Positions 1 to 37,435 of a stretch of DNA of 64,000 nucleotides are shown one piece after another. The DNA lies in NCBI RefSeq assembly GCF_036195045.1, contig NZ_CP108100.1, forward strand, positions 3,410,001 to 3,474,000, read 5' to 3'. Every line of letters starts with the position of its first letter. Positions within the stretch are counted from its first letter, which is position 1. The position numbers and the translations under genes are program-made. Source of the DNA: Streptomyces sp. NBC_00236. Lineage in GTDB: Bacteria > Actinomycetota > Actinomycetes > Streptomycetales > Streptomycetaceae. Below the pieces are notes generated by a model that was given only the letters and a program-made list of their open reading frames with translations, searched no databases and was not told the origin of the DNA.

Positions 1-1
1 C

Positions 2-721
2 CGCACCCTGGTGCACGAGCACCGGGTCGGATTCGTGCTGTGGTCCTGGCAGTTGGAGTACGTCCACCCGCTGCGGTTCCTCGACGCCGACGAGGCACGC
101 GTCGAGGTGACCGCGCGCGTCCGCGGCCCGCGCGCCTCGCAGCTGGAGGTGGAGATGACCCTCGAAGGCCCGGCCGGTGTCGCGGTGCGCACCCGGGCCG
201 CCTCCGTGCCGCTGCGGCTCAGCGGCGACGAGGCGCTCTCCGGCGCACCCGGGCCGCTGCCGGGCGCGCTCGCCGGTGCCTTCCACGAGGACGAGACCGA
301 GCTCACCCCGCACCGTTCGCGGATCCGCGCCATGCGCGCCGGGTTCGCCCGGGACGGCGAGCAGCTCGCCTCGGGAAGCGCGCGCTTCCGGGTGCACCGG
401 CACCACTGCGAAGTCGCCGACCAGTGGTACTGGGCCGAGACGCTCGGGTTCGCCGCCGGCGCCCGCGAGGAGCTCGTGATGCGGCACGGCAGGACGCTTC
501 CCGGGCTGCGCCGCGCACTGGCCGCGCCGCTCCGCCGGGTGGACGTGACCTGGCTGCGCGCCGGCCAGTTCCGGGATCTGTTCGAGGTCCGCACGAGCGC
601 CCATCAGGTCGGGGACGAGCTCGCGTTCGTCCATGAGCTGTGGCTCGCGGGGAACGAGGGCGAGGGCGGGCACGTGAACGAGGACGGCGGGCCGTACGCC
701 GTCGTGGTGGAGCGCATATGA
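2..721 (+). CDS. Double-hotdog thioesterase-like protein, 5' end outside window
   Basis: The reading frame is open from the first bases, so the gene starts before the window; 239 residues are visible. The sequence looks like two consecutive hotdog-type halves: one around visible residues 10-85 and a second around 135-225 with the pattern of acyl-thioester hydrolases. This would fit hydrolysis or transfer of an acyl-ACP or acyl-CoA intermediate. The stop overlaps the ATG of the next gene (ATGA), so the two are translationally coupled. The family call rests on overall pattern only; no catalytic residue was pinned down. It shows that the biosynthetic cluster continues to the left. Confidence 0.5.
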   Translation, partial: RTLVHEHRVGFVLWSWQLEYVHPLRFLDADEARVEVTARVRGPRASQLEVEMTLEGPAGVAVRTRAASVPLRLSGDEALSGAPGPLPGALAGAFHEDETELTPHRSRIRAMRAGFARDGEQLASGSARFRVHRHHCEVADQWYWAETLGFAAGAREELVMRHGRTLPGLRRALAAPLRRVDVTWLRAGQFRDLFEVRTSAHQVGDELAFVHELWLAGNEGEGGHVNEDGGPYAVVVERI

Positions 722-2445
722 CCTCCCCGGCCGGACCCACGGGCACACCGTCCACGTTCGACGCCGCGGCACGCCTGGAGCAGGCGCTCGGCTGCCCCTT
801 CGACCCGGACAGCGGTATATCGCTCGCCGGAGGTGTCCGGGCCGACGAGCTGGAGGCGGAGCCCACCGCCGCCTACGAGGCCGCCTGGTCGGCCGGCCTG
901 CACGAACATCTGGTCCCCGTGTCCGAGGGCGGCCGGCTCGGCTCGTTCGAGTCGCTGACGGGCGTGGTGCGCGCGACCTCGCGGCGCGACCTGGCGGTCT
1001 CCGTCGGTCTCGGGTCGACGCTCCTCGCCGCGACCCCGGTATGGGCCTGGGGCGACGACACCCAGCGGAGCAGGGTCGCCGAGCTCGTCCTCGGCCGTGC
1101 CTGGGGCACCGCCGGCATCAGCGAGGAGGCGGCGGGCAGCGACCTGCTCGCCACCGGCACCCGCGCCGTCCCGGCCCCCGGCGGGTATGTGCTCGACGGA
1201 GAGAAGTGGCTGGTCGGCAACGGCCGCCGCTCCTCGTTCGCCACCGTCCTCGCCGCATCCGATCCCTCGTACGGACTGTTCCTGCTCGACTTCGACGCCC
1301 TCGACGGCAGCACCGTGAAGCGGCTCGACAAGGTACGCACCCACGGGCTGCGCGGCCATGATCTCAGCGGCTTCGCCCTCAGCGGCTGCCCGGTCGGCGC
1401 CGAGGCCGTGCTCGGCCGGCCCGGCCGCGGCATCGAGATGGTCTCCGGCATGCTGCAGTTCACCCGGACCCTGGTCGGCGCGAGCAGCCTCGGCGCGGCC
1501 GACACCGCATTGCGGATCGCGCTGCGCCACGCCCGTGGGCGGATGCTCTACGGCCGGCCGGCCCTCGCCATGGCCCCGGTCCGCTCCCTGCTCGCCCGCG
1601 GCTTCGCCGATCTGCTGGTCGCGGAGTGCACCGAGCTGTCCGCCGCGCGCGGGCTCGACGTGGCGCGGCAGCGCATGGCGCTCTGGTCCGCGGTGGCCAA
1701 GTACGTGGTGCCGCAGCTGTCCGTGGACACCGTGACCGCCTGCGCGGAGGTGCTCAGCGCACGCGCCCACCTGCGCCGGGGAGTCGCGGACGGCGCGTTC
1801 CAGAAGCTGCTGCGCGATGTCGCGGTCACCCCGGTCTTCGAGGGCACCGAACTGGTCCAGCTGGACACGGTCCGGGCCCAGCTGAGCGGTGCGGCCCGAC
1901 GCCGCCGGGCGCCGGCGACGCTGCCGCTCCCGCTGCTCTTCGGGTTCGGCGAGCCGGTGGTGTCGCCCGCACCGCGGGACCTGCGCCCCTCGCTCACCTT
2001 CGGCGGCGCCGACGAGGTCGTCGACCTCCTGGACGACGCGGTCGAGGAACTGGCCGACGACCCCGGGTTCGCCGCCCTGGCCCGCACGCTCCTGCGGGTC
2101 CGGGACGAGACCCGGACGGCGTTCGCCGGTCTCGGCACCCTGCGGACGGCCGAGGCCTACGAGGCCGCCCGGCGGCACTGCCTGGTCCACGCGGCGGCCT
2201 GCTGCATCCACACCTGGCTCCAGCGCCGTGCCGCGCTCGGCGGCCTGGCCACCGAGCGGGCCTGGCTCTCGCTCGCGCTGCGCCGGGTCGTGGCACGGCT
2301 CGGCCTGCCCGTCCCGCCCGACCCGGAGGCCGAGGACCTGCTCGTGCGCCGGCTCGAAGAACTCGACGACACGGACCGGGCGTTCTCCCTCGTACCGATG
2401 CGGCTCGCACCGCAGCACCGTGATCCCTCGCCCGCACGAAGCTAA
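718..2445 (+). CDS. Acyl-CoA/acyl-ACP dehydrogenase-like flavoprotein
   Basis: 575 residues starting at the ATG that overlaps the upstream stop. The middle region has the acyl-CoA dehydrogenase beta-domain pattern (GISEEAAGSDLLATG, then an EKW motif). The C-terminal helical part ends in VFEGTELVQ, where the Glu sits at the position of the catalytic base of medium-chain type enzymes. About 150 extra residues follow, rich in helices and conserved-looking Arg/Leu. It probably desaturates an acyl chain or aminoacyl group on a carrier protein, because a free-standing ACP gene and a second dehydrogenase follow directly. A 160-bp gap holding a dispersed repeat separates it from the ACP gene. Confidence 0.8.
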   Translation: MTSPAGPTGTPSTFDAAARLEQALGCPFDPDSGISLAGGVRADELEAEPTAAYEAAWSAGLHEHLVPVSEGGRLGSFESLTGVVRATSRRDLAVSVGLGSTLLAATPVWAWGDDTQRSRVAELVLGRAWGTAGISEEAAGSDLLATGTRAVPAPGGYVLDGEKWLVGNGRRSSFATVLAASDPSYGLFLLDFDALDGSTVKRLDKVRTHGLRGHDLSGFALSGCPVGAEAVLGRPGRGIEMVSGMLQFTRTLVGASSLGAADTALRIALRHARGRMLYGRPALAMAPVRSLLARGFADLLVAECTELSAARGLDVARQRMALWSAVAKYVVPQLSVDTVTACAEVLSARAHLRRGVADGAFQKLLRDVAVTPVFEGTELVQLDTVRAQLSGAARRRRAPATLPLPLLFGFGEPVVSPAPRDLRPSLTFGGADEVVDLLDDAVEELADDPGFAALARTLLRVRDETRTAFAGLGTLRTAEAYEAARRHCLVHAAACCIHTWLQRRAALGGLATERAWLSLALRRVVARLGLPVPPDPEAEDLLVRRLEELDDTDRAFSLVPMRLAPQHRDPSPARS

Positions 2446-2487
2446 GGGCTTCGCTCGGCCCGGGAGGGACCCGGGAGGGGCCCCCTC

Positions 2488-2564
2488 CCGCGCTGTCGTC
2501 GGTCGCCGATGCTCCGCAGTGACTCCCCTCGCCTTGCAGCCGCACGCGCCCACCCCCGCTCCCT
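2488..2564 (-). repeat. Dispersed intergenic repeat, copy A
   Basis: Read on the minus strand this segment is nearly identical to 24080-24158 on the plus strand. The shared core includes GTGCGGCTGCAAGGCG, then TGCGGAGCAT, then GCGACCGACG. It lies in a gap between two same-strand cluster genes and is followed by a GC-rich inverted repeat. It is a non-coding repeat of unknown role. Confidence 0.75.
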
Positions 2565-2604
2565 GACCCGGCCCGACCCAGCCGAAAGACCCTAGGAGTA
2601 CGCC

Positions 2605-2886
2605 ATCACCACCGCGCGCACCAACCCCGCGGACCCCGCCACCGAGCCCCTCGGCACCTGGCTGTCGTCGCTGATCGCCGACCTGCTGGGCCTCGACGAA
2701 CCGTTCCCGGCGGGCATGCCGCTGGGCGAGCTGGGCATCGACTCCCTCACCGCGGCCCAGCTCTCCGTGGAGGCCGAGGAACGCACCGGTGTCCATGTGC
2801 CGCTGACCCGCTTCCTCGGCGACGAGACCCTCGACGACATCGTCCGGGCCATGGCGGACGCCCCGGCGGCCGGGGCGTCCGCGTGA
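2605..2886 (+). CDS. Free-standing acyl carrier protein with an apparent ATC start
   Basis: 93 residues. The phosphopantetheine motif GELGIDSLTAAQLS places the attachment serine near residue 47, with the usual helices before and after it. The frame opens only after a TAG at 2593, and no ATG, GTG or TTG precedes the first helix; the next ATG (2713) would delete helix 1. An AGGAG at 2594-2598 is spaced 6 nt from ATC at 2605, which I take as the start codon, or as a base error for ATG. The stop overlaps the GTG of the following dehydrogenase-methyltransferase fusion, so this ACP likely presents its substrate. Confidence 0.75.
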   Translation: MTTARTNPADPATEPLGTWLSSLIADLLGLDEPFPAGMPLGELGIDSLTAAQLSVEAEERTGVHVPLTRFLGDETLDDIVRAMADAPAAGASA

Positions 2887-5273
2887 CGGCCCGGGCCCGC
2901 GCCGCCGATGTCATGAACCGGGGCGGTGCGGACCGCCACGGGCCGCACCGCACGCTCGACGCGGAGGTGGAGGAGGTCCGGTCCGAGGCCCGGCGCCGGT
3001 TCGCCGGCTTCGTGTCGGACGTCGCCAACCCCGGCTCGCACTTCCGCAACCACGCCCGCCGGCCGCTCGACACCCGCGTGTTCGAGCAGGCGGGCGAGCT
3101 CGGTCTGATGCGGTTCTCCCTGCCGGCCGAGGCCGGGGGCGACGGGCGGGACAAGCTCGCCTGGGGTGTGGTGGTCGAGGAGATCGCCCGTCTCTCGCGC
3201 GATCCGGGATTCGCCGTGCTGCTCGACATCACCGTCGAGATCACCGAGCTGATCCTGTCCAGCGGAACGCCGGAACTGATCGAGCGCTACGTGCCCGACC
3301 TGGCGGCCGGCCGGCGCTTCGGCGTGCAGGGCGCCTACGAGAACCGGGACCCGTACGACTACACGTCCACGGCACGCCTCGAAGGTGGCACCTGGGTGCT
3401 CAACGGCGCCAAGCGGTTCCTCGCCGGGGCCGCGTTCGCCGACCTGTTCATCCTGTTCCTGCGCGACGAGGCGTCCAACGACATGCTCGCCTTCGTGGTC
3501 GAGAAGGACGATCCGGGTGTCACCCCGGTGCCGCTCGACACCATGGGCCTGCACACGATGGGCCTGGGCCAGGTGCTCCTGCACGACGTGCGTCTGCCGC
3601 CGTGGCGGCTCGTGTGGCGGGCCGACGCGCTCAGCGAACTCAACACGTACGCGCGCATCCGCCGCACGATGAGCGCGTGCGGGGTGCTCGGCGCCCTGGA
3701 CGCGGTGGTGGAGAACTGCGTGGAGTCACTGGCCGCGCGCAGACGCGGCGGGCGCCCGGTCCTCGACTACACCAATGTGGAGCGCTCGGTCGGCGAGATG
3801 CACGTGCTGCTGCAGAGCGCCCGGGCGAGCGTCTACCGGGCGCTCGACGGCACCCGTTCCGCCGACCGCGACCCGCACTTCGACGAACTCGCCACCGTCG
3901 CCAAGCACCGGACCGCCGAAAGCGCCCTGCGTGTGGGCCAGTTGGTGATGGGGCTACAGGGCGGCGAGGCGTACATGGCCACGTTCCCCTGGGAACGCTT
4001 CATGCGTGACGTCCTGGGTCTGGTCTCCGGTCAGGGCTCCCAGGAGACACTCCTCATCCAGCTGGGCCAGCGTTCGATCGTCGGCCTGGAGGGAAAGCGG
4101 GTGCGTCAGGAGGCCGCCGAGCGCGTCGTCGCCCGGCTGGCGGACTCCTGGTGGGCGCTGCACGCGGCGGTCGCGGACGAGCGTCCCGGCGAACCGGCGG
4201 GCCCCGTGCGCGAGGTGCTGTCGGCGGCCGGCCTCGCATCCATCGGTCCGGGTCCCCGTGCCGAGGCGGACGCGCTGCTCGGCCGCGCCCACACGTTGTG
4301 GGCCGCGGTGTGTTCCGGGGCGGCGCCCGACGCGTTGCCGAAGGGGCCGGCGGATCTCCTCGACGGGCCGCTCGCACCGGTGGCCGCGCAGGCATGGGCG
4401 CTGCTGGCGTGTGCCGTCGCGGAACGGACCGGGCTGCTGGCCCGGCTGCTGGGGCCGTGCACGGCGAAGGAGGCCGCCGGCACACTGCCCGTGGACCTTG
4501 CCGAGGGGCTGCTGAGGGTTCTCGCGGAGGCCGCACTGGTACGGCGGGACGGCGAGGGCCGCTACGTGGCCACCGAGGGCCTGGAACGCGTGCTCATCGG
4601 TGGCCCGCGTGCCTCCGCGTTCGCCGCACGGCTGCGGCGCGCGGTGACCGGGGGCGCCCGGCTGCGGTCCGGGGCCGCGGCAGCCCCGGAGGGCGAGCCT
4701 GCTCCCGGATGCGGCGGCGAGGCGCCGGCGCTCGCGGAGGCGCTGGTCGACTCCCTGCTGGGCCGGCTGGAAGGACTGCCCGCGATGCTGGATCTGCCCG
4801 GCGCGCGGGTCGGCTGTGCGGCCGGTGACGGAGGGCGGTCCGCGGTCGCGCTGTCGCGCCAGATGCCCGGACTGCCGGTACTCGCGCTGGAGCCCCGCCA
4901 GTTGCCCGTGCCCACGGCCGACGGGCCGGTACGGGTGCGGGTCGCTGATCCGGCCGGCTTCGAGGAGGACGACCGGCTCGCGCTCGTCTGGTTGCCCGTC
5001 GGCGCAGTGCCGGGCGACGGGCTGCGCCGGTCCGTTGCCGCCGGCGCCGCCGCGCTGATGCCCGGCGGGTGGATCGTCCTGCCGTGCCCGCTCCTCCCGA
5101 AGCGCGCGCTCGGGGTCGCGGCGGCACGCCTCTGCCTGGCCGTCACGGGCGGGACGGCACCCGCGGACGGTGAGGTCGAGGGCCTGCTCCGGGCCGCGGG
5201 CCTGGGCCATGTCCGCACGGCGTGGGAGGACCACTCCCTCGGCATCCGGCTGATCGCGGCCCGCCGCCCGTGA
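2883..5273 (+). CDS. Acyl-CoA dehydrogenase fused to a methyltransferase-like region
   Basis: 796 residues, GTG start overlapping the ACP stop. Residues about 20-420 follow the acyl-CoA dehydrogenase fold (helical N-terminus, FAD-binding middle with WVLNGAKRFLAG, helical C-terminus). The usual YEGT-type base motif is replaced by SGQGSQETLL, so the base position seems to be Gln. Residues about 540-590 look like the winged helix of small-molecule methyltransferases (LLRVLAEAALVRRDGEGRYV). Residues about 640-790 resemble a Rossmann methyltransferase domain with a weakened SAM loop (VGCAAGDGG). It may be a carrier-protein-dependent tailoring enzyme. The fusion is the unusual point; activity of either half is inferred. 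Confidence 0.65.
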   Translation: MTARARAADVMNRGGADRHGPHRTLDAEVEEVRSEARRRFAGFVSDVANPGSHFRNHARRPLDTRVFEQAGELGLMRFSLPAEAGGDGRDKLAWGVVVEEIARLSRDPGFAVLLDITVEITELILSSGTPELIERYVPDLAAGRRFGVQGAYENRDPYDYTSTARLEGGTWVLNGAKRFLAGAAFADLFILFLRDEASNDMLAFVVEKDDPGVTPVPLDTMGLHTMGLGQVLLHDVRLPPWRLVWRADALSELNTYARIRRTMSACGVLGALDAVVENCVESLAARRRGGRPVLDYTNVERSVGEMHVLLQSARASVYRALDGTRSADRDPHFDELATVAKHRTAESALRVGQLVMGLQGGEAYMATFPWERFMRDVLGLVSGQGSQETLLIQLGQRSIVGLEGKRVRQEAAERVVARLADSWWALHAAVADERPGEPAGPVREVLSAAGLASIGPGPRAEADALLGRAHTLWAAVCSGAAPDALPKGPADLLDGPLAPVAAQAWALLACAVAERTGLLARLLGPCTAKEAAGTLPVDLAEGLLRVLAEAALVRRDGEGRYVATEGLERVLIGGPRASAFAARLRRAVTGGARLRSGAAAAPEGEPAPGCGGEAPALAEALVDSLLGRLEGLPAMLDLPGARVGCAAGDGGRSAVALSRQMPGLPVLALEPRQLPVPTADGPVRVRVADPAGFEEDDRLALVWLPVGAVPGDGLRRSVAAGAAALMPGGWIVLPCPLLPKRALGVAAARLCLAVTGGTAPADGEVEGLLRAAGLGHVRTAWEDHSLGIRLIAARRP

Positions 5274-5290
5274 CGAGGCCGAGGCAGTCC

Positions 5291-5324
5291 GCTGCGGCCC
5301 GGACCGGGTGGTCCGGGCCGCAGC
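5291..5324. terminator. Bidirectional terminator hairpin
   Basis: A perfect 15-bp inverted repeat with a 4-nt loop (arms GCTGCGGCCCGGACC and its complement). It lies between convergent units: the dehydrogenase fusion on the left and the NRPS operon end on the right. There is no T-tract, as is common in high-GC actinobacteria. Confidence 0.8.
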
Positions 5325-5345
5325 GGGTGCTTCTCACGCCTGGGG

Positions 5346-5385
5346 CCTTCCGTTTGGATCAGGCCGGGCCTATCCAGACGGAAGG
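5346..5385. repeat. GGATCAGGCC hairpin element, copy 1
   Basis: An imperfect 19-20-bp inverted repeat containing CGTTTGGATCAGGCCGG. It directly follows the terminator hairpin and ends next to the stop of the SnoaL-like gene. The same 17-bp core recurs at 19941 and, inverted, at 24186, in each case in a gap between transcription units or genes of this cluster. It may act as a second terminator. Confidence 0.65.
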
Positions 5386-5387
5386 TC

Positions 5388-5816
5388 CTAGCCGAAGAGG
5401 GTCCGGCCGAAGTACTCGGTGTCGAAGTACTCCCGCATGCTCCGGATCTTTCCGTCCCGGACGGTGAACTGCGCACTGATGTCCAGGACGTACGGGGCAC
5501 CGTCGCGGGTCGTGGCCCGGGTGACGCACTCGACCGAGACCTCGTCGCCCTCCGCGATCACGTGGAGGATGTCGACCGCGTACTCGGCCGTCGGGTCGAA
5601 GCGCTCTCCCATGGGGATCAGGAACCTCTCGGCGATCTCGCCCAGCCCGGTCCAGGTCCCCGCCACCGGATGGCTGCCGGGTATGCGGTAGACGGCGTCG
5701 GCGGCGACGACGCCGGTGATCACCGCCGCGTCACGCTCGCGCAGGCCCTGGAGGTAGCGGTGCACCACGCTCTTGGCGTCGAGGTCTTCCTGGGTTCGTT
5801 CGGCGGCCTGGGTCAT
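5388..5816 (-). CDS. SnoaL-like (NTF2-fold) protein
   Basis: 142 residues from ATG 5816, preceded by GAGGAGA at good spacing. The pattern HRYLQGLRERDAAVITGVVA, then a central AEYAVDILHVIAEGDEVSVE and a C-terminal FTVRDGKIRSMREYFDTEYF is typical of the SnoaL/limonene-epoxide-hydrolase-like NTF2 superfamily. Members act as cyclases, isomerases or small hydroxylating partners in secondary metabolism. It is the last gene of the operon that starts with the exporter, right after a flavin monooxygenase, and it may work on that enzyme's product. The exact reaction cannot be read from the sequence. Confidence 0.8.
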   Translation of the reverse strand: MTQAAERTQEDLDAKSVVHRYLQGLRERDAAVITGVVAADAVYRIPGSHPVAGTWTGLGEIAERFLIPMGERFDPTAEYAVDILHVIAEGDEVSVECVTRATTRDGAPYVLDISAQFTVRDGKIRSMREYFDTEYFGRTLFG

Positions 5817-5868
5817 CGGTTCTCCTCGGGTTGTCGCTGATCTGTCGTACGGGGGGGCGGGAGCTTCG

Positions 5869-7053
5869 TCAGTTCGCCGGGGTGTCATCCAGCAACTGCG
5901 GCGTCAGGGCCCGCTGGAAGGGCTTGAACAGCACGGACTGGGGTGCGTGACGCAGGTACAGGTCGCGCACGACGCGCAGGGCGGGGTTCTCCAGCTGCTC
6001 GAAGCCGCCGAACTTGCGGGAGACCTCGACCATTTCCCGGGTGCGCTCGCGCCGCAGGTTCTCGTACCTGCGCAGCGAGGCGACGGTGTCCGTGCCCGCC
6101 GCCAGGCACTGGGCGAGCACCACGGCGTCCTCGATGGCCGTGCTGCCGCCCTGGCCCAGGCTGGGGAGCATCGGGTGCGCGGCATCGCCCAGGAGGGTCA
6201 CCGGGCCCTCGCCCCAGTTCTCGAGGAACGGGCGGTCCTGTGCCGGTACGGCGACGATGTCCTCGGCCGGGGTGGTCGAGATGGCCTCGCACACCTCGTC
6301 CGCCCATCCGGCGTAGGCGCGCACGATGGGGTCCTTGTCCCCGTCCCAGCGGCCGGCCGCCTCGGCCGACATGTTCAGGGTGCCCCACCAGTAGGCACGC
6401 CCCTGGCCCACGTCATGGATGCCGAAGCGCTTCCCGAGGCCCCAGTAGTGGGCGTTGAACCCCTTGGTGATCTTCGGGTGGGCGAAGGGGGTGACGGAGA
6501 GCCAGCAGAGGAATCCGCCGTACCGCGGGCCGCTGTCATCGCCCGTACGGCGGCGGCGGACCGCGGAGTTGATGCCGTCGGCGCCGATCAGGAGGTCGCC
6601 GGTGGCTTCCCTGCCGTCCTCGAAGCGGACCCGTACGCCGTCCCCGGTGATCTCGTACCCGGTGGCGGCCGCGCCCACCGAGACGGGCATCCCGCCGAGG
6701 GCGTCGAGCAGGGCGGCCTGCAGGTCGCCCCGGTACATCGCGACGCTGGGGGCACCGAGCCGGTCACCGGCGGTCTCGACCGGCAGGGACCGCAGGGTCC
6801 GGCCCTTGTCGGTCATGATCCCGGTGTGCAGGATCGTCTGTCCGCGCTTCTCCAGACCGAGGTCGATCCCGAGGGCGCGCAGGGCCGCCACGGCGTTGCT
6901 CATCACGGAGATGCCGAATCCCGCGGGCCGCAGATCGGGCGCGCGCTCGTACACCTCCACGTCGACGCCGACCCGGCGCAGGGCCACGGCGGTCGCGAGC
7001 CCTCCGATCCCGGCTCCGATCACGATGGCCCGGGGGCTGGTTCGCTGTGCCAC
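5869..7053 (-). CDS. FAD-dependent aromatic/alkene monooxygenase
   Basis: 394 residues with a GTG start one base after the NRPS stop (TGACGTG), preceded by GAAGGGA inside the NRPS end, so the two are coupled. Residues about 8-35 carry the FAD-binding GAGIGGLATAVALRRVG. A second flavin motif, GDAAHPMLPSLGQGGSTAIED, lies around residue 280. This is the single-component group A flavoprotein monooxygenase family (PHBH-like), which uses NAD(P)H and O2 to hydroxylate or epoxidise. Given its position it probably tailors the peptide or one of its aromatic building blocks. Confidence 0.9.
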   Translation of the reverse strand: MAQRTSPRAIVIGAGIGGLATAVALRRVGVDVEVYERAPDLRPAGFGISVMSNAVAALRALGIDLGLEKRGQTILHTGIMTDKGRTLRSLPVETAGDRLGAPSVAMYRGDLQAALLDALGGMPVSVGAAATGYEITGDGVRVRFEDGREATGDLLIGADGINSAVRRRRTGDDSGPRYGGFLCWLSVTPFAHPKITKGFNAHYWGLGKRFGIHDVGQGRAYWWGTLNMSAEAAGRWDGDKDPIVRAYAGWADEVCEAISTTPAEDIVAVPAQDRPFLENWGEGPVTLLGDAAHPMLPSLGQGGSTAIEDAVVLAQCLAAGTDTVASLRRYENLRRERTREMVEVSRKFGGFEQLENPALRVVRDLYLRHAPQSVLFKPFQRALTPQLLDDTPAN

Positions 7054-7054
7054 G

Positions 7055-10000
7055 TCAGTGTCCCTTCTCTGCGGTGCGGGGAGCGGGCGGGCCTGCGGGG
7101 TGCGGATCGCCGTCACCCTCGGTTCGCGCCAGCTCGCCGACTATGCGGGCGACTTCGGCCACGTACGGCTCCTCCATGAGGGAGAGGTGGTCGCCCGGCA
7201 CCTGAATGACCTCGACCCGGCCGGTGGTCATGGTGTGCCACCCGTTGGCAGGGTCCTTGTGCTGTGTGCTGCCCGCGCCGTGCATCGCGTGCAGGACCTG
7301 CGGCAGCGGCTCCACGGCCCGGATCAGGGTGACGTCGTCCGCCACCGGTCCGGGCCGGTAGTGCTGTGTCGCGCGCCAGTTGGCCTCGTACACCCCGAAG
7401 AGGCGCCCGACGAGCGAGCCCCCGCCGTCGGCGGGCAGGACGCCCTCGTCGGCGGCGACTTGGGCGATGAAGTCGAACTTCTCCTCAAGGGTGGTGAGTT
7501 CGGCGGGAATGGCCTCCAGGGGCGAGTCGCCGCCACGGCCCAGCAGTAGCAGTTCCCAGAAGAACCAGCCGAGCAGCGCCTCGTCGGTGAACGCCCTGTG
7601 CTGATCCGCCGGTCCGAGGGCAACCGTGTCCAGGAGGATCACCCGGCTGACCTCCTGTCCGGCGGCCCGCAGCTGTCGCGCCATCTCGAAGGCCACGAAG
7701 CCGCCGAAGGACCAGCCGCCGATGACGTAGGGGCCCTCGGGCCTGACCCGGCGCATGGCGGCGACATAGTGCGCGGCGATCGCCCGCATCGTGCGCAGGG
7801 GCTCGGTGCCCAGGTCGCCGCCGGACGCCTGGAAGGCGTACAGCGGCTGGTCGTCGGGAAGATGGCGGGCGAAGGGTACGTAGCAGAGCACGTTGCCGCC
7901 CATGGGGTGCACCAGGAAGACCGGCGGTCTGTTGCCGGCGCGGCGGATCGGCACCAGCGGGTCGAAAGCGAGCGTGGCTCCGCCCTTCCGCAGCAGCCCG
8001 GCCACGGCCGCCACCGTCGGTGCCGTGATGAAGGCGGATATCGGGATCGGGACCCCGTACCGCTGCTCGATCAGCACGACGAGCCGCATCGTGGTGAGGG
8101 AGGTGGCGCCCAGCGTGAAGATGTCGTCATGGATACCGATCCGTTCGAGGCCGAGGAGTTCACCGAGCATCTCCGCCAGGGTTCTTTCGTACGCGTCCCG
8201 GGGCTCGTCGCCGTCCCCGGTGGTCGCCCGGGTCAGTGGCCGGGCCCGCAGTGCCTTGTCGTCACGCTTGCCGCTCGGGGTCAGTGGCAGCGCGTCGAGC
8301 CACTCGAAGTGCTGCGGGACCATGAACTCGGGCAGAACCGCGCGCAGTTCGGTGCGCAGGACGTCCAGGTCGGTCCGCTCGGCGTCGCCGGAGAGGAAGG
8401 CCACCAGTGCGGTGCGCCCGTCCGTCCCGCTCCGGGCGACCACCGCGGCCTGCTGGACGTCGATGCCCGGATGGCGTGCCGCGAGGCCGATCAGAGCGAC
8501 CTCCGCCTCGGCGGGCTCGACCCGGTAGCCGCGGATCTTCACCTGGGTGTCGGCCCGGCCCGCGTAGGCGAGGACGCCGCCGGGCAGGACGCGGCCCAGG
8601 TCACCGGTCCGGTAGGCGGTGATCCCGCCGTCGGGACCGTCCAGGCGCACGAACCGTTCGGCGGTCTGTGCCGCGGCCCCGAGATAGCCGTCGGCGAGCG
8701 CCGGTCCGGACAGGTACAGCTCGCCCTTCACGCCCGTCGGGACGGGGCGGCCCAGCGGGTCGAGGACCCGGACCTCCGCGCCGGGGACGGGGGTGCCGAT
8801 CGGGACGATCGACGGGAAGCCGGCCGGGTCCCCGGTCATGGTGTGGCGGGTCACCACGTGCGACTCGGTGGGGCCGTACTGGTTCTCCAGGATCGCTCCC
8901 GGCAGCGCGGCCACGAGGGCCCGGATCTCGTCCGTGACCCTCAGCTGCTCGCCGGAGGAGACGATCACGCGCAGAGCTCGCGGGACGATGCCGAGGGCGC
9001 CGGACGCCTCGGCCAGCTGCTGCAGCGCCACGTACGGCAGGAAGATCCTTTCGACGCCGGCCTCGTCGAGCAGGCGCAGCAACGCCGGCATGTCGCGCCG
9101 TTCCTCCTCCGTGACCAGGCGCAGCGTGCCGCCCGCGCAGAGCGTGGAGTAGATCTCCTGGAAGGAGACGTCGAAGCTGAGCGGCGCGTACTGCACGGTG
9201 GTCCGGCCGGCGGACGCGCTCTCTGCCCGGATCTGCCAGCCGGTCAGGGCGGCCAGGGAGCGGTGGGGCATCACCACACCCTTGGGCCGGCCCGTGGAGC
9301 CCGAGGTGAACAGGATGTACGCGGTGCTGTCGGGGCCGATGGCGTCCGGCAGCGCGCTCGGCCGCCCGCCCGCCGCGGCTGCCGGCTCCGGGCCGAAGAG
9401 CGACTCCGCGGCCAGCAGCAGGTGCGGGTCCGGCAGGAGTGCGGCGTCCGCCGTGCGCGCGATGATCCGGAACGGCTCGGCCTGCTCCACCATCGCGGCG
9501 ATCCGCGCCTCGGGGTAGGCGGTGTCCAGCGGCACGCAGGCGGCGCCGGCCCTGGCGGTGCCGAGGATGGCGGCGACGGTCTCCGGTGAACGGTCCATCG
9601 CGATGCCGATCCGGGCGCCGGGGCGGGCGCCGAGAGCGGTCAGCCGGCGGGCCACCCGCTCGGTGGACGCCCGCAGTTCGCGGTAGGTCCAGGTGCGCTC
9701 GCCCGTGGTGACGGCGGGTGCGTCGGGGGTCAGGTCGGCCTGCTGGTCGAAGAGCCGTACGACGTCGTCGGTGAACGCGTCGGCGGTGGGGGTGGCGCTC
9801 TGCCGCGTGCCGGCGGGGAAGGCGGAGCCGGGCGGCTCCCCCGGTCCGGTGACGAGACGGCGCAGCACCTCGGTGTAGGTCTCCCCGAACAGTTCTGCCT
9901 GGGCCGGGGTGATGGTGCGGCCGTCACCGTCGATGCGCAGTCCGATCGTGCCGTCCTGCGGGTGCAGGAAGGCGTTGACCAGGAGCTGGAAGTCGGTCTC

Positions 10001-24331: not shown

Positions 24332-24595
24332 TCACTTGGCCGCGGCGGCGGCGGACACCCGGTCGACGATCTCCTTGACCAGGCCGGCGACCGTCAGCAG
24401 CGCGACGGTCTCCATCTCGTCCTCTTCGAACTTCACGCCGTACGTGTCCTCGACCTGGATGGCGACCTCGGCGACGGAGAGCGACTCCAGGTCCAGCCCG
24501 GCCGGGCCCAGCGGGGTGTCGCCGGTGACATCCGAAACGTCGTAGTTCATGTTCGCCAGGGCCTCGATGATGAACTTCTCGACCTCAGTGGACAT
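24332..24595 (-). CDS. Free-standing acyl carrier protein
   Basis: 87 residues from ATG 24595 with GAGGAG at 7-nt spacing. The motif GLDLESLSVAEVA places the phosphopantetheine serine at residue 38; acidic helices flank it and an Ala-rich tail follows. It is a type II ACP. It heads the leftward operon of ligase, FabF, hmaS, PhyH, prephenate dehydrogenase and hydrolase, so it is the likely partner of the ligase and ketosynthase. It diverges from the Sfp-type transferase gene only 17 bp away. Confidence 0.92.
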   Translation of the reverse strand: MSTEVEKFIIEALANMNYDVSDVTGDTPLGPAGLDLESLSVAEVAIQVEDTYGVKFEEDEMETVALLTVAGLVKEIVDRVSAAAAAK

Positions 24596-29867: not shown

Positions 29868-31202
29868 ATGGGCGACAGCACCGCCCCGGCCACCCGGACT
29901 GCCCGGGCCCTCGACCTCACCGAACTGCACGCGTCCCTCACCGACCCGGTGCTCGACGCGATGAACTTCCTGAACGAGGTCGTCTCCCGCTTCCCCGACG
30001 CCCTCTCCTTCGCCCCCGGCAGGCCGTCCGAGGGCACGTTCGCCACGGACGATCCGGCGCGCTACCTCCAGACCTACACCGACCATCTGAAGTACGGACT
30101 CGGCTGGTCCGACGACCGGGTGCGCACTCAGCTGTTCCAGTACGGCCGGACCAACGGCATCATCCACGACCTCATCGCCCGCACCCTGGCCAACGACGAG
30201 GGCATTCACGTCAGTCCGGAGTCGGTCGTCGTGACGACCGGCTGCCAGGAGGCGATGCTGCTCACCCTGCGCGCCCTGTTCGCCCGGCCCGAGGACACCC
30301 TGCTCGTCAGCTCTCCCTGCTACGTCGGGGTCACCGGTGCGGCCCGGCTGCTGGACATCGCGCTCTGCCCCGTCCAGGAAGGAGCCGCCGGACCGGACCC
30401 GCAGGCGATCCTGGCCGGCGTACGCCGGACACGGGCGGCAGGCGGGCGGCCCCGTGCCCTGTACGTGGTGCCGGACTTCGCCAACCCGTCGGGCGCGAGC
30501 ATGACCGTCGCCGCCCGCGAACAGCTCCTGGAGATCGCCGCACAGGAGGATCTGCTGATCCTGGAGGACGATCCCTACGGGTTCTTCGTACGCGAAGGGT
30601 CCTCGCGTCCCACGCTCAAGGCCCTGGATCGCGAGAGGCGGGTCCTGCACCTCGGATCGTTCGCGAAGACCGCGCTGCCCGGCGCACGTGTCGGCTATGT
30701 CGTCGCCGATCAGGAGGTCATCGGGCCGGCCGGCGAACGCACGTTACTGGCCGACCAGTTGTCCAAGATCAAGAGCATGACGACGGTCAACACCTCGGCC
30801 ATCAGCCAGGCCGTCATCGGCGGGCTGCTCATCGAGTCCGACTGCCGGCTCCGCGCGGCGAACGCCGATGCCATCGCCTTCTACCGCACCAATCTGGACA
30901 CCCTCCTGGACGAGCTGGAGCGGCACTTCCCGGCGGCGCGCCGGAGCGAGCTCGGTGTCAGCTGGAACCGGCCGGACGGCGGGTTCTTCCTCGTCGTCAC
31001 CGTCCCGTTCCTCGCCGACACCAAGGCACTCGAACACTCGGCACGGAACTTCGGGGTGCTCTGGACGCCGATGAGCGACTTCTACCTCGACGGCGGCGGG
31101 AGCACCCAGCTCCGGCTGTCATGCAGCGCTCTGACTCCGGATCAGATCTCGGAGGGCGTACGCAGGCTGGCCGCGTTCATCACCGGCCAGGCGGGCCGGT
31201 AG
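29868..31202 (+). CDS. hpgT: 4-hydroxyphenylglycine aminotransferase
   Basis: 444 residues from ATG 29868. It is a fold-type I PLP aminotransferase: TTGCQEAMLLTLRALF, YVVPDFANPSGASM, LEDDPYGFF, the PLP lysine in LGSFAKTALPGARVGY (about residue 268) and a late RLSCSAL arginine. The N-terminal LSFAPGRPSEGTF recalls HpgT proteins. It converts 4-hydroxybenzoylformate to Hpg, with tyrosine as usual amino donor, which also regenerates 4-hydroxyphenylpyruvate. A TTA codon at 30744-30746 points to bldA dependence. Together with hmaS and hmo it completes the Hpg route. Confidence 0.9.
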   Translation: MGDSTAPATRTARALDLTELHASLTDPVLDAMNFLNEVVSRFPDALSFAPGRPSEGTFATDDPARYLQTYTDHLKYGLGWSDDRVRTQLFQYGRTNGIIHDLIARTLANDEGIHVSPESVVVTTGCQEAMLLTLRALFARPEDTLLVSSPCYVGVTGAARLLDIALCPVQEGAAGPDPQAILAGVRRTRAAGGRPRALYVVPDFANPSGASMTVAAREQLLEIAAQEDLLILEDDPYGFFVREGSSRPTLKALDRERRVLHLGSFAKTALPGARVGYVVADQEVIGPAGERTLLADQLSKIKSMTTVNTSAISQAVIGGLLIESDCRLRAANADAIAFYRTNLDTLLDELERHFPAARRSELGVSWNRPDGGFFLVVTVPFLADTKALEHSARNFGVLWTPMSDFYLDGGGSTQLRLSCSALTPDQISEGVRRLAAFITGQAGR

Positions 31203-32893: not shown

Positions 32894-32930
32894 CCTCTTC
32901 CGACAGACCTCTCCCCGGCACCGCATCCGG

Positions 32931-33193: not shown

Positions 33194-33796
33194 ATGGACA
33201 TCCGGAAGCTGGACCGAGCGGCCGTGCTGGAGACCCTGCGCATCCTGGAGCAGGCAGAACCCGAGGACTGGGACCGCCCCACCCCGTGCGCCGGCTGGAC
33301 GCTGCATCAGCTGGTGGCCCACATGACGGCCCAGCACCATGGCTTCGCGGCCGCCGCCGCGGGAATCAGGACCCGCCTCGCCGCCTGGCACCCCGGCGAA
33401 CTCGGCGACGATCCGCTGAAGACCTACCGCACCGCGGCCGAGGCAGCTCTCGAAGCCTTCGCCGAACAGGCCGTACTCACCCGGGAGTTCAGCCTCCCCG
33501 AAATCAGCGAGACGCGGCGCTTCCCCGCCACGGTCGCCATCGGGTTCCACTTCCTCGACCACGTGGTCCACGGCTGGGACCTGGCCCGGACCCTCGGCGT
33601 GAGCCTCGACCTGGACGAGGGGACCACCGAGGCCGCGCTGGTGATCGCCCTGCGCGTGCCGGACGACGAACGACGGCTCGGCCCGGACGCACAGTTCCGC
33701 CCGGCCCTGCCCACCGCGCCCGGCGCGCACTCGCTCGACCTGGTCCTGACCACGCTCGGGCGCTCGCCCGACTGGTCCGCCCCGGCTCCCCGCTAG
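33194..33796 (+). CDS. Mycothiol-dependent isomerase-like (DinB/MDMPI) protein
   Basis: 200 residues from ATG 33194 with AAAGGA upstream. The N-terminal CAGWTLHQLVAHMTAQHHGF and FHFLDHVVHGWDLARTLG supply the histidines of the metal-binding DinB-like fold used by maleylpyruvate isomerases and related mycothiol transferases (TIGR03086-type). It may protect against or conjugate a reactive intermediate, or perform an isomerisation. It opens the operon of ACP, diiron enzyme, AcpS-like protein, thioesterase and ligase. Function within the pathway is inferred only from location. Confidence 0.85.
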   Translation: MDIRKLDRAAVLETLRILEQAEPEDWDRPTPCAGWTLHQLVAHMTAQHHGFAAAAAGIRTRLAAWHPGELGDDPLKTYRTAAEAALEAFAEQAVLTREFSLPEISETRRFPATVAIGFHFLDHVVHGWDLARTLGVSLDLDEGTTEAALVIALRVPDDERRLGPDAQFRPALPTAPGAHSLDLVLTTLGRSPDWSAPAPR

Positions 33797-33918: not shown

Positions 33919-34179
33919 ATGCTCGCCGACCTCAGAACGCATGTCGCACGCCGGCTCGGCCTGACCGAGGAAGAGGTGTTCGCCGGTCAGCCGCTCTCCG
34001 CCGTCCTGGTCGCCTCGCCGAGTGCGATCAACTCCATCGACCTGCTGGACGCGTTCGCCGGAGCGCTCGCCGACGTCGGTGTCGACGACGACGTCGAACT
34101 GCCGACGATGACCCTCGATCACACCGCCGAGGAAGTCGTGTCGGCCCTCGGTAAGCAGCTCGCCACCACCTCCTCCTGA
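33919..34179 (+). CDS. Free-standing acyl carrier protein
   Basis: 86 residues from ATG 33919 with AGGGAGA upstream. Its phosphopantetheine site reads INSIDLLDAF, with Ser39 at the usual DSL position (Asn for Asp). The body is acidic with the normal ACP helix pattern (LGLTEEEVF, then DDVELPTMTL). It is followed 17 bp later by the desaturase-type diiron gene and is the probable carrier for the ligase at 35918. It is the third free-standing ACP in the cluster. Confidence 0.88.
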   Translation: MLADLRTHVARRLGLTEEEVFAGQPLSAVLVASPSAINSIDLLDAFAGALADVGVDDDVELPTMTLDHTAEEVVSALGKQLATTSS

Positions 34180-34196
34180 ACCGGAAGGCGCGAACC

Positions 34197-35171
34197 GTGC
34201 TGATCATGACCGACATAGTCAAGGAGCTCCGCGCCGGGGCCACCATCACCGATGTGCTGCGCGTGCAGCAGAGCTACCACGAGCAGCGCCGCTGGGGAAC
34301 GGACAGCCTCTTCGACGGCCGCCGCCTCGACCGGCCGCGCGCCGGCGACAAGGCCGCGCTGTGGCACGCCTCCCGCGCCGAACTGACCACCCAGCCGGCC
34401 GGCCTCCGGCTGGCCGTCGACGGCGTCAAACTGGCCAACGAGATCCGCGAGTCCAACCCGCTCGGCGCCGACGTCCTGCACATCGCCGCGGCCTGGTCGG
34501 CCCGCTACTGGCTGGAGGAGGAGGCTCACCACGAGATCGCCTTCGGCCGGCTCATGGAGATGGCGGGCATCGACCCCATCGACGAGGACGAAGTGATCGA
34601 GTGCCGGGGCGAGCTCCCGATGGACAACTACGTGCGCGTCTGCATGCTCCAGGCCTGCGTGGAGATCGAAGCCTGTGTGTCGTACGGCTGGCAGTCCCGC
34701 GCCACCGAGGACGCCCTGGTGCGCGACGTCTTCCACACGGTCATGAAGGACGAGGTGCAGCACCGGCAGTACTTCGCGTCCTTCGCCAAGGCCCTGGTGG
34801 ACACCGGCGTCTATCCCGTGAAGGACGTCCTGTCGATGGCGTACACCTGGGTCCGCCCCGACGGGGGCGAGACCTTCGGCGCGGCACGTGAGGCCCAGAC
34901 CGAGCGCCAGGGCCACGTCAACTGGTGGGAGCGGACCCGCTCCGGCGACGAGGAGTTCGCCCTCGCCGACGACGCGCTGCACGAGGGGTCGGTGCACGCG
35001 AAGAAGCTGACCAGCGTGTTCGCCCTGGTCCGCGAGGTGACCGGCATCCAGACCCAATCGTATGAGGACTTGAAGCGTGCCTACTTCGCCAGTCTCCGCA
35101 CGAACGATGTCGACCGGATTCGATCTGCAGTCCGTAACGGAGCTGCGCGCGAAGCGGCACTTGCTCAGTAG
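34197..35171 (+). CDS. Ferritin-fold diiron oxidase/desaturase-like protein
   Basis: 324 residues from GTG 34197 (GGAAGG upstream); ATG 34206 is possible. The diiron ligand pairs are WLEEEAHHEIAF (about residue 110) and MKDEVQHRQYFASF (about 185), with ACVEIEACVSYGW between them, matching the acyl-ACP desaturase/ferritin-like group. It is clearly different from the DesA-like gene at 14404. Next to an ACP and an acyl-ACP ligase it probably dehydrogenates, hydroxylates or cleaves an ACP-bound chain, as in ligase-desaturase-ACP cassettes known from alkyne and polyene lipid pathways. Its product is inferred. Confidence 0.75.
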   Translation: MLIMTDIVKELRAGATITDVLRVQQSYHEQRRWGTDSLFDGRRLDRPRAGDKAALWHASRAELTTQPAGLRLAVDGVKLANEIRESNPLGADVLHIAAAWSARYWLEEEAHHEIAFGRLMEMAGIDPIDEDEVIECRGELPMDNYVRVCMLQACVEIEACVSYGWQSRATEDALVRDVFHTVMKDEVQHRQYFASFAKALVDTGVYPVKDVLSMAYTWVRPDGGETFGAAREAQTERQGHVNWWERTRSGDEEFALADDALHEGSVHAKKLTSVFALVREVTGIQTQSYEDLKRAYFASLRTNDVDRIRSAVRNGAAREAALAQ

Positions 35172-35499
35172 CGGCGCGCTGTTCACGGCCGGCGAGCTGG
35201 CGCACTGCCACTCCCGGCCCGACCCGTACGCGTCCTTGGCCGGGCTGTTCTCGGCCAAGGAGGCGTTCATCAAGGCCGTCAGCTCCCTGGGCGGCGCACC
35301 GGCCCACACCTTTCCCGAGGTCGAGGTGGTACACGGCCCCTCCGGGCAGCCCCGGATCCAGCTGCACGGCCCGATCGCCCAGTGGCGCCTGCAGCATGAC
35401 CTCGCCGTGGAAGTGTCGATCAGCCACACCGGCGATCTCGCCGGTGCGGTGGTCGTCCTCCTGGCCGGACCGGCACGGAGTGGAGACCGGACCCCATGA
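35107..35499 (+). CDS. AcpS-type holo-ACP synthase
   Basis: 130 residues from ATG 35107, overlapping the diiron gene by 65 bp; a GTG at 35077 would lengthen it. TGFDLQSVTEL matches the N-terminal Mg-binding Asp region, and GLFSAKEAFIKAV matches the F-A-x-KEA-x-xKA signature. A late SISHTGDLAGAVVV fits the third motif. It would phosphopantetheinylate the neighbouring ACP. A second transferase of a different family (Sfp type) is encoded at 24613, an uncommon duplication in one cluster. Confidence 0.85.
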   Translation: MSTGFDLQSVTELRAKRHLLSSGALFTAGELAHCHSRPDPYASLAGLFSAKEAFIKAVSSLGGAPAHTFPEVEVVHGPSGQPRIQLHGPIAQWRLQHDLAVEVSISHTGDLAGAVVVLLAGPARSGDRTP

Positions 35500-35921
35500 A
35501 CGCCGTCACACCGCAGGAGTTCGAGCACACCTGCGAAGTCGCCCTGCGCCCCAACGACTTCGACTGGGCCGGGCACCTGAACAACAGCGTGCACGTCCAG
35601 CTCCTGGAGTCGGGCCGCTGGCAGTGGGGGCTCGCCCTGGGCGCCGACCTGCGGGACAGCTCCCTGGTGGCCGTCGTGCTCCAGCTCCAGCTGGACTACC
35701 TGAAGACGGTCGACTGGGACCCGGTGGGCCGCCTCGTCGTCCGTACGTCCCTGGCGGGCCAGTCCTCGTACAGCTTCACGCTGAGCCAGGACATCGAACG
35801 GACCGACGGCACGGTGGTCGCCCGGGGCCAGGTCCGGCTGGGGCTCGTCGACCGCGACACCAAGCAGATCCACCGGGCGGACCTCCAGGCACTGCTGAGA
35901 ACGCCCGGGAGGGTGGCATGA
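35496..35921 (+). CDS. Acyl-CoA/ACP thioesterase, 4HBT hotdog family
   Basis: 141 residues, ATG overlapping the AcpS stop (ATGA). NDFDWAGHLNNSVHVQLLESGR is the YbgC/4HBT signature, with the acidic and Asn residues of the active-site loop. QLQLDYLKTVDWD and a central strand set complete one hotdog domain. It would hydrolyse an acyl-thioester, either releasing the chain made in this sub-operon or proof-reading the ACP. Its stop overlaps the start of the acyl-AMP ligase. Confidence 0.87.
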   Translation: MNAVTPQEFEHTCEVALRPNDFDWAGHLNNSVHVQLLESGRWQWGLALGADLRDSSLVAVVLQLQLDYLKTVDWDPVGRLVVRTSLAGQSSYSFTLSQDIERTDGTVVARGQVRLGLVDRDTKQIHRADLQALLRTPGRVA

Positions 35922-37435
35922 CCACGAACACGCTGCAGGAAGCCGTCGCCGGACAGGCCCACCGGCACGACGCGACCGTCACCTTCGGCACCTCCGCCAA
36001 GCGGGAGCGCCTGACCTATCCCGCGTTCGCCGAACAGATCGCGGCCGCCGCCGGCGGCTTCGTCCAGCAGGGGGTACGCCCCGGGGACCGGGTGATGATC
36101 CGCATCGGCAGTTCCCGCGAGGGCGTACTCGCCCTCCTGGGCCTCATGCACATGGGCGCGATCCCCGTCTCCGTGAAGCCGCGCGTCCCGGGCGCGATCA
36201 CCGCCCAGTACTTCGCGCGGGTGACGCACCAGCAGCACGTGCGCCACGCCTTCCGCATCGCCGGACATGGCCTGAACGAGCTCCAGTTGGTCCTCCGCCC
36301 CGGCGCGACGCCCGAACCCGCCCCCGGGGACCGTGACGGCCTCGCGTTCATCCAGTACACCAGCGGCTCCACCGGAATGCCCCGCCCCATCCCGCTCAGC
36401 CACCGGGCCGTGCTCGGCAACATCCAGGCCATCCGCATCGTCGCGGGCATGAAGCCGGGCCACGCCGGCCTGATCGCCCTGCCGCTCCACCACGACATGG
36501 GCCTCATCGGCGTACTGACCTCCCTGGTCCAGGGCATCGACCTGGTGGTCGAGGACCCGGGCACCTTCCTGCGCAGACCCATGGCGGCTCTGCGGCTGAT
36601 GCGCGACGCGGAAAGCGTGCACAGCGCCCTGCCCGACTTCATGCTGCGCTACCTCGCGGCCAGGATCGACGAGGCGGCCGCGGCCCAGGAATCGGTCGAC
36701 CCGCAGCTGCTCGGCGTCTGGCGCACCGTGTTCTGCGGAGCCGAACCCATCCGCCAACAGTCCGTGCGCACCTTCCTGGACGCCGCGGGCCCCTGGGGAT
36801 TCGACTCCACGGCCCTGGTGTTCTGCTACGGACTCGCCGAGGCGGCCCTGATGGCCACCTCGCACCGCTACGTGGACGCCGCCACCAGCTTCCGGACGGA
36901 CGGCCCCACCACATCCGCCTGCCTCGGCCGCACCATGCCCGGCCTGGACCTGCGCATCGTGGACGAGTCGGGCCTCGACTGCGCGGAGGCGGAGGTCGGC
37001 GCGGTGCAACTGCGCGGCGCCACCCTGTTCGACGGCTACGACGGAACCACCGACCACCGCACCACCTGGTTCGACACGGGCGACCTGGGAGGCCTGCGCT
37101 CGGGCCGCCTCCACCTGAGCGGCCGCAGGGGCGACCGCATCTCCGTCAGCGGCGTGAACGTCTTCGCCACGGACATCGAACAGATCGCGGCAACGGTCCC
37201 CGGCGTCGCCGAGTGCGTGGTCCTGCCGTCCGCCGAATCCTTCGCCGTGGTCGTCGTACCGGAACGGTCCCGGCACATCGACACGGCCCAGGTAGCCACC
37301 CGCATCGCCGCCGACTTCGGCATGGCCCCGGACCGCGTACTGGAGGTGCCGCACAGCGCGGTCGCCCGAACGGCAAGCGGCAAGCCCGCCCGCACCCACA
37401 TGGCCGCGCAGCTGGCACAGGGCACGCTGGGATGA
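35918..37435 (+). CDS. Fatty acyl-AMP ligase-like enzyme
   Basis: 505 residues from ATG 35918, coupled to the thioesterase by ATGA. Motifs: P-loop IQYTSGSTGMPRPIPLSH (about residue 145), LPLHHDMGLIG and YGLAEAALMATSHRY (both typical of the FadD32/FAAL group), WFDTGDLGGL and the C-terminal RTASGKPARTHMAAQ lysine region. FAAL-type enzymes activate fatty acids as acyl-AMP and load ACPs. This is the last gene before the tRNA, and it supports a lipid starter or side chain built on the 33919 ACP. Confidence 0.9.
   Translation: MTTNTLQEAVAGQAHRHDATVTFGTSAKRERLTYPAFAEQIAAAAGGFVQQGVRPGDRVMIRIGSSREGVLALLGLMHMGAIPVSVKPRVPGAITAQYFARVTHQQHVRHAFRIAGHGLNELQLVLRPGATPEPAPGDRDGLAFIQYTSGSTGMPRPIPLSHRAVLGNIQAIRIVAGMKPGHAGLIALPLHHDMGLIGVLTSLVQGIDLVVEDPGTFLRRPMAALRLMRDAESVHSALPDFMLRYLAARIDEAAAAQESVDPQLLGVWRTVFCGAEPIRQQSVRTFLDAAGPWGFDSTALVFCYGLAEAALMATSHRYVDAATSFRTDGPTTSACLGRTMPGLDLRIVDESGLDCAEAEVGAVQLRGATLFDGYDGTTDHRTTWFDTGDLGGLRSGRLHLSGRRGDRISVSGVNVFATDIEQIAATVPGVAECVVLPSAESFAVVVVPERSRHIDTAQVATRIAADFGMAPDRVLEVPHSAVARTASGKPARTHMAAQLAQGTLG

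Follow-up and report, generated by a model that had tools for sequence, protein, structure and literature searches.

A 4-hydroxyphenylglycine gene cluster without a peptide synthetase and an inserted pyrrolizidine-type synthetase set probably share one composite locus in Streptomyces sp. NBC_00236

The window analyzed here is a 64,000-nucleotide stretch of Streptomyces sp. NBC_00236 (contig NZ_CP108100.1, positions 3,410,001 to 3,474,000), in which positions 1 to 37,435 hold genes for 4-hydroxyphenylglycine (Hpg) supply, acyl chemistry and a two-module nonribosomal peptide synthetase (NRPS). Genes were called by simple codon usage in the window and in 30 kb to its left, and the products were scanned against Pfam and NCBIfam. 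Positions numbered below 1 are to the left of the window, and genes are referred to by their first coordinate (Table 1). We consider it likely that the interval is a composite of two interleaved gene sets in place of a single odd peptide pathway. An earlier model-made interpretation of the bare DNA (the sequence-only reading) named genes that are all present, and gene calls and family matches bear it out for HmaS, an Hmo-like enzyme, prephenate dehydrogenase (PDH), three acyl carrier proteins (ACPs), a FabF-like ketosynthase (KS), three AMP ligases, two diiron-type proteins, two acyl-CoA-dehydrogenase (ACAD)-like flavoproteins, a major facilitator superfamily (MFS) exporter and one C-A-T-C-A-T-TE NRPS. 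Its hpgT is present as a class I/II aminotransferase gene, whose HpgT role is putative, the PDB matches being other enzymes of the fold. Its statement that the cluster continues to the left also holds, as gene calls and Pfam place the end about 20.5 kb beyond the window start. The AcpS gene at 35107-35499, the diazotase kinship of ligase 22344 and the composite structure were not on its list.

The core of the locus was delimited by comparison with relatives. The diiron gene 34197 was searched in 392 genomes of the genus, the window's own included, and matched in 15, with six at 82-100% identity (again counting the window's own), two at 39% and seven that aligned only in part, at 22-27%. In five of the 391 other genomes (G158, G023, G195, G200 and G277), the core forms one uninterrupted cluster, and gene calling found no NRPS in it. 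Its order there is TetR -6129, FabI, hydrolase, 57-residue protein, patatin-like protein and ferredoxin -2525, followed directly by desaturase 14404, then MFS 15516 and the run of genes that opens with PDH 18049 and closes with the fatty acyl-AMP ligase (FAAL) 35918. The exceptions are hydrolase 17077, which had no match in G200 and G277, and the second TetR, which was uncalled in G023. Identities of core genes range from 50 to 93%, the 57-residue protein being the lowest. Within the mapped cluster of the five relatives, no close homologues of the genes at -20501..-6292 or -2191..14362 were found, and P450 31427 had no match in any of the mapped core loci. Because the relatives' loci map without them, we describe the locus as a core plus three added parts, namely insert A at the left, insert B from its FAAL to the NRPS, and the P450. 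No gene called inside the relatives' cluster exceeds 817 codons, the length of a merged call in G195, and the cluster therefore holds no NRPS. Insert A is a polyketide synthase (PKS) with a thioester reductase; its large gene at -17052..-8215 was first read as an NRPS by size, and Pfam resolved it as ACP-KS-AT-DH-KR-ACP-C.

Insert B lies between ferredoxin -2525 and desaturase 14404, two core genes that are adjacent in the relatives, and joins a FAAL/ThiS/hotdog/ACAD/ACP/ACAD cassette to the NRPS and a flavin-dependent (FAD) monooxygenase. Streptomyces sp. WZ.A104 (G399) carries the core, the nitrite-pathway genes CreE and CreD, insert B and, at the end of the stretch fetched from it, the FAAL and PKS start of insert A, with core and inserts arranged as in the window; insert B and the beginning of insert A match at 71-93% identity. 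Insert B is therefore no accident of a single strain. The fetched stretch of WZ.A104 held no match to desaturase 14404 or to the P450. Related NRPSs occur in WZ.A104 (78%) and in G392-G394 (about 53-55%). The FAD monooxygenase adjoins the NRPS in WZ.A104 (93%) and, at 57%, in S. sparsogenes (G392, where the contig ends near the NRPS) and Streptomyces sp. NBS 14/10 (G394). The stretches fetched from the latter two contained no other core or insert gene beyond generic ligase matches and a partial 42% esterase at one edge. The cassette itself has counterparts, 68-83% alike, in S. sparsogenes, S. milbemycinicus, NBS 14/10 and Saccharothrix ST-888, and at loci L064, L065, L066 and L068 it stands beside MFS, diiron (37-39%), hotdog and FAAL-like genes, with a P450 in three of the four.

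The core looks like a pathway for Hpg, a rare tyrosine-derived amino acid, that operates without a peptide synthetase, and no such pathway was found described in the literature searched. In a PDB sequence comparison, its HmaS scored 332 bits to 2r5v, which we take to be PCZA361.1, a glycopeptide HmaS, versus 253 bits to the HPPD 1t47. The nearest other copy of KS 21082 in the genome is 44% identical. For FabI, another genome copy is 72% identical, and the core copy is conserved at 84-93% in seven relatives and at 65% in the broken locus of Streptacidiphilus 4-A2.

Ligase 22344 had been assigned to acyl-ACP chemistry. It is indeed an AMP ligase, but its closest relatives are diazotases: it scored 484.7 bits to the AvaA6 diazotase model NF058622, with the next model at 148.6, and its PDB matches were 8ztz (382 bits), 9bq0/8tf7 (305) and 9xb8 (262), followed by the next entry at 103. 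Entries 9bq0 and 8tf7 are Tri17 according to passages of PMC11705231; a literature search by the PDB codes 8ZTZ, 9IJF and 9XB8 returned no paper. By sequence, 22344 is closer to the CreM/AvaA6/Tri17 diazotases than to CoA ligases. Both CreE and CreD adjoin the core in seven of 11 core loci. They occupy the MFS-PDH interval in G158, G200, G277, G399 and G451, and in S. flavidovirens (G398) and SA15 (G400) they are on the same contig at most 9 kb from the ligase, the CreD of SA15 being cut by the contig end. The CreD of S. parvulus (G200) scored 500 bits to 5xny and 692 bits to the NCBIfam nitrosuccinate lyase family (cutoff 650), and the CreE-like protein scored 724 bits to 8cp2, presumably an aspartate N-hydroxylase. 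At the G023 locus neither gene is present, and close homologues of both lie elsewhere in that genome, unlinked.

Table 1. Genes and gene sets of the composite locus.
Feature	Position	Strand	Set	Evidence and remarks
Insert A	-20501..-6292		insert A	left of window; without close homologues in five core relatives
TetR regulator	-6129..-5488		core	resembles TetR at 28223
FabI	-5424		core	NCBIfam FabI cutoff passed
Hydrolase	-4648		core
57-residue protein			core	adjoins patatin-like gene; no Pfam match
Patatin-like protein	-3472		core	Pfam match under its cutoff, no NCBIfam match
Ferredoxin	-2525		core
FAAL	-2191..-401		insert B	left of window
ThiS-like protein	-404..-138		insert B	left of window
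Hotdog (YbgC/FadM-like)	1..721, starts 133 bp left of window	+	insert B	68-73% in L064, L065, L066, L068
ACAD-like flavoprotein	718..2445	+	insert B	Pfam; 77-80% in L064, L065, L066, L068
ACP	2605..2886	+	insert B	start codon apparently non-canonical ATC
ACAD-like flavoprotein, extra C-terminal part	2883..5273	+	insert B	Pfam
SnoaL-like protein	5388..5816	-	insert B	Pfam
FAD monooxygenase	5869..7023	-	insert B	Pfam FAD_binding_3; candidate pyrrolizidine-type Baeyer-Villiger enzyme
Bimodular NRPS	7055..14362	-	insert B	C-A(Ser)-T-C-A(Pro-like)-T-TE; Pfam, motifs
Soluble acyl-ACP desaturase (diiron)	14404..15306	-	core	Pfam FA_desaturase_2; 85-89% in five relatives
MFS exporter (DHA2 family, predicted)	15516..16967	-	core	Pfam; NCBIfam TIGR00711 above cutoff
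Alpha/beta hydrolase	17077..17937	-	core, facultative	Pfam; not found in G200, G277
PDH	18049..18945	-	core	Pfam
PhyH family Fe/2-oxoglutarate oxygenase	18945..19862	-	core, sub-core	Pfam; 66-73% in nine distant loci
4-Hydroxymandelate synthase HmaS	20000..21064	-	core	Pfam, NCBIfam, PDB match 2r5v
FabF-like KS	21082..22347	-	core	catalytic Cys and two His (Cys-His-His motifs)
ANL enzyme related to CreM/AvaA6/Tri17 diazotases	22344..23993	-	core	NCBIfam NF058622, PDB matches
ACP	24332..24595	-	core	Pfam
Phosphopantetheinyl transferase	24613..25281	+	core	Pfam ACPS
Short AMP ligase	25287..26591	-	core	nearest solved relatives are benzoate-CoA ligases
FMN-dependent 4-hydroxymandelate oxidase-like (Hmo-like)	26999..28018	-	core	Pfam FMN_dh
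TetR regulator	28223..28867	+	core	Pfam; not called in G023
HSL-type esterase	28914..29864	+	core	Pfam Abhydrolase_3
Class I/II aminotransferase, putative HpgT	29868..31202	+	core	role inferred
Cytochrome P450	31427..32893	+	addition to core	Pfam; 55-56% homologues beside insert-B cassette in L064-L066
Mycothiol-transferase-like protein	33194..33796	+	core	Pfam MDMPI_N
ACP of FAAL module	33919..34179	+	core	NSIDLL motif; 78-85% in five relatives; no Pfam or NCBIfam match
Diiron-type protein	34197..35171	+	core	E62 / E109xxH112 / E156 / E186xxH189
AcpS-type phosphopantetheinyl transferase	35107..35499	+	core	TIGR00556 65.6 bits, cutoff 45.35
Hotdog thioesterase-like protein	35496..35921	+	core	NCBIfam match under cutoff
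FAAL-like enzyme	35918..37435	+	core	Pfam, NCBIfam

The wider distribution of the ligase was followed in a family sample of 121 genomes, in which relatives of 22344 (E 1e-120 or better) were found in 33, a number that includes the window's own genome and two genomes (G422 and G470) in which the ligase reaches no more than 45-46% identity. Nine distant loci with a ligase at 56-65% identity, a subset of those found, were fetched as 20 kb stretches. PhyH, HmaS and KS accompany the ligase in all nine, and the complete sub-core of nine genes (ligase, PhyH, HmaS, KS, ACP, second ligase, Hmo, esterase and aminotransferase) occurs in six; L127 has eight of these genes, L124 seven and L126 six. In G407, G452, G456 and G445, a CreE gene and a ligase copy are some 7-20 kb apart. 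In group g7, CreE was found in 11 of 12 ligase-bearing genomes, yet also in at least eight without the ligase. Since the distant loci keep the Hpg genes and CreE is unassociated with the ligase genome-wide, the ligase relative belongs to the Hpg pathway, and the nitrite link is strong only in the Streptomyces/Streptacidiphilus core. At L121, a thiamine pyrophosphate (TPP) enzyme of the E1 alpha/beta type, a second KS-like gene and a DUF3050 protein stand beside HmaS; by translated starts only, L122 and L125 also have E1 alpha/beta and a second KS-like gene.

The sequence-only reading had proposed a small acylated peptide in which the NRPS combines Ser with an Hpg-derived unit. The NRPS does neighbor the Hpg genes, and its A1 domain reads as Ser: with A-domain codes taken by hand at the Stachelhaus positions, the A1 code, DVWHFSLVD, fits Ser. 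By the same hand reading, the A2 code, DVQFVSQVV, starts with DVQ like proline codes and is unusual in the remainder, and an Hpg code was in neither of the two A domains of the window's NRPS. The Hpg cluster of the five relatives does without an NRPS, and related NRPS and FAD monooxygenase pairs occur in other Streptomyces stretches without the core. As the locus appears to consist of an NRPS-free core and a separate NRPS insert, an acylated Ser-Hpg peptide is very improbable. We regard it as rather unlikely, though far less so, that in this strain the core, the NRPS insert, the PKS insert and the P450, and in WZ.A104 the same sets minus the P450, work together on one hybrid product, such as a pyrrolizidine bearing an acyl chain from the core. 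Such a merged pathway is favored by insert B and the start of insert A standing at the same positions in WZ.A104, and by the S. sparsogenes-like loci, which hold both the cassette and relatives of the core's acyl genes, so that cassette and acyl module do co-occur elsewhere. Against it, the core is complete without the inserts in five relatives, and the NRPS and FAD monooxygenase were found apart from the core. The whole is probably best explained by two co-located pathways, one being the NRPS-free Hpg core, with a probable N-N step, and the other the NRPS insert of pyrrolizidine type. Several observations weigh against this explanation, beginning with the insert: its pyrrolizidine assignment draws on architecture and hand-read codes rather than on characterized sequences such as LgnC, PxaB and BraC, and insert B has been kept in two species, because of which it and the core could share one product.

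The remaining counterpoints concern the N-N step, which we hold to be probable on balance, though unproven. Within the composite, 22344 could instead be an ordinary acyl- or aryl-adenylating ligase, with CreE and CreD serving another purpose, and we give this a lesser but real chance. The AvaA6 equivalog cutoff of 975 bits was not reached by 22344, and the CreE-like protein of G200 matched no NCBIfam family. The window's own locus is without CreE and CreD, the best homologues in the genome being 39% (CreE) and 53% (CreD) identical and unlinked; G195 had no CreE match and only a 56% CreD-like gene, none being at the locus; and in Streptacidiphilus 4-A2 (G397) CreE is present near the ligase, about 5 kb away, only as broken pieces, and CreD is missing there. 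None of the nine fetched distant loci contained a CreE or CreD match. Across the family sample, CreE was present in 20 of the 33 genomes with a ligase relative versus 41 of the 88 without (Fisher p 0.22, not significant), and in the Kitasatospora-like group g14 it was detected at E 1e-120 in three of 13 ligase-bearing genomes, the other 10 lacking a close CreE. Against an ordinary ligase, Tri17 and the two related PDB entries score far above ordinary ligases, and CreE and CreD adjoin most of the core loci.

The data establish gene architecture and homology, from which we infer every reaction, all products and any joining of the products. In the core, prephenate would be converted to 4-hydroxyphenylpyruvate, 4-hydroxymandelate, 4-hydroxyphenylglyoxylate and Hpg by PDH, HmaS, Hmo and the aminotransferase. 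Ligase 25287 would load Hpg or its keto acid onto ACP 24332, the FabF-like KS would extend the carrier-bound unit and PhyH would oxidize it. The AvaA6-like ANL enzyme 22344 may then nitrosate or diazotize the amine using nitrite, which CreE/CreD would provide in most core loci and another source in the window's strain. The FAAL-ACP-diiron-AcpS-hotdog module, the desaturase and ferredoxin -2525 may add or oxidize an acyl chain. We offer only tentatively that the core product is N-N bonded (of the diazo ketone, hydroxypyrazole or pyridazine type) through alpha-amine nitrosation of KS-extended, carrier-bound Hpg, and that this product inhibits FabI/InhA, with the core FabI serving as self-resistance target; taken by itself, FabI as a self-resistance gene is a guess. 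If this were true, a diazotase relative would act on an amino-acid-derived amine instead of an aryl amine or hydrazone. In insert B, the cassette would make an unsaturated acyl starter for the Ser-Pro NRPS, and the FAD monooxygenase would reshape the indolizidine product of the NRPS, as in bacterial pyrrolizidine alkaloids.

Glycopeptides and calcium-dependent antibiotic (CDA) are made by Hpg NRPS pathways with HmaS, Hmo, an aminotransferase and prephenate dehydrogenase. The window's core has the counterparts of all four, the Hmo being Hmo-like, but the window's NRPS has no Hpg-type A domain and no NRPS was called in the core of the five relatives. A second likeness is to the ava and cma clusters for avenalumic and p-coumaric acid, for which passages of PMC10777205 describe the ATP-dependent diazotases AvaA6 and CmaA6. 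Shared features are an AMP ligase, an ACP, a ketosynthase and a diazotase relative, with CreE/CreD in most core loci, whereas the window's core takes its aromatic unit from HmaS and has extra FAAL/diiron and Hpg genes. Pfam scans of the core genes recognized no 3-amino-4-hydroxybenzoate (3,4-AHBA) synthase, chain length factor or AvaA7, no search having been made with Ava sequences, including AvaH/AvaI; one KS is present in the window's core. Passages of PMC11705231 also name Tri17 and CreM as the nitrosation enzymes of triacsin and cremeomycin. Those pathways resemble the core in a related ANL enzyme and, at most core loci, in genes of the aspartate-nitrosuccinate (ANS) nitrite pathway, and differ from it in that Hpg-type precursor genes take the place of hydrazine or aminobenzoate genes.

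The NRPS and FAD monooxygenase fit, by analogy, the bimodular NRPS/Baeyer-Villiger pair of bacterial pyrrolizidine alkaloids. According to passages of PMC11457151, PMC11177316 and PMC7820566, most described bacterial routes to pyrrolizidines and lipocarbamates require a bimodular NRPS of this order and such a monooxygenase. Insert B shares with the pyrrolizixenamide, brabantamide and bohemamine type a C-A-T-C-A-T-TE NRPS, by hand reading a Ser code followed by a Pro-like one, and an adjacent FAD monooxygenase, here a candidate for the Baeyer-Villiger role; it differs in being embedded in another cluster and in carrying the cassette. The NRPS unit is of a known kind, and it is for the whole gene combination that a literature search of open-licence papers matched no described pathway.

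The chimeric one-pathway reading is hereby corrected, as it would mislead structure prediction. The comparison points to a cluster family in Streptomycetaceae, not found described, that combines Hpg supply, in the absence of any NRPS, with a relative of the diazotases. Should the N-N step prove genuine, both its enzyme and its substrate could be assayed directly; the FabI copy supplies a target hypothesis.

Several minor observations were made. The insert-B ACP has an in-frame stop just upstream (TAG GAG TAC GCC ATC ACC ACC) and no ATG, GTG or TTG before its conserved region. Its start is ATG in L065 and L066 and ATC in the window, WZ.A104, L064 and L068, although WZ.A104 and L064 have a GTG or ATG further upstream in frame; an ACP starting with ATC would be missed or shortened by gene finders. 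Diiron protein 34197 belonged to no Pfam family and gave no PDB sequence match at E 1, and its model is predicted to be R2/ferritin-like with two ExxH motifs. The azoxy synthase VlmB was among its structural matches as one of many near-tied rows, and was not used as N-N evidence. Modules of the ACP-diiron-AcpS-hotdog-FAAL type also occur in myxobacteria (L061, L070 and similar loci). Rfam ASdes, which we take to be an M. tuberculosis sRNA antisense to desA, matched 14969-15036 on the + strand, antisense to the desaturase gene, with 58.9 bits (threshold 40); the match may be no more than a trace of coding-sequence conservation. A tRNA-Arg(CCT) at 37578-37651 immediately follows the cluster on its right, and after it comes an integrase-core gene at 38159-39163; the two possibly mark an island edge.

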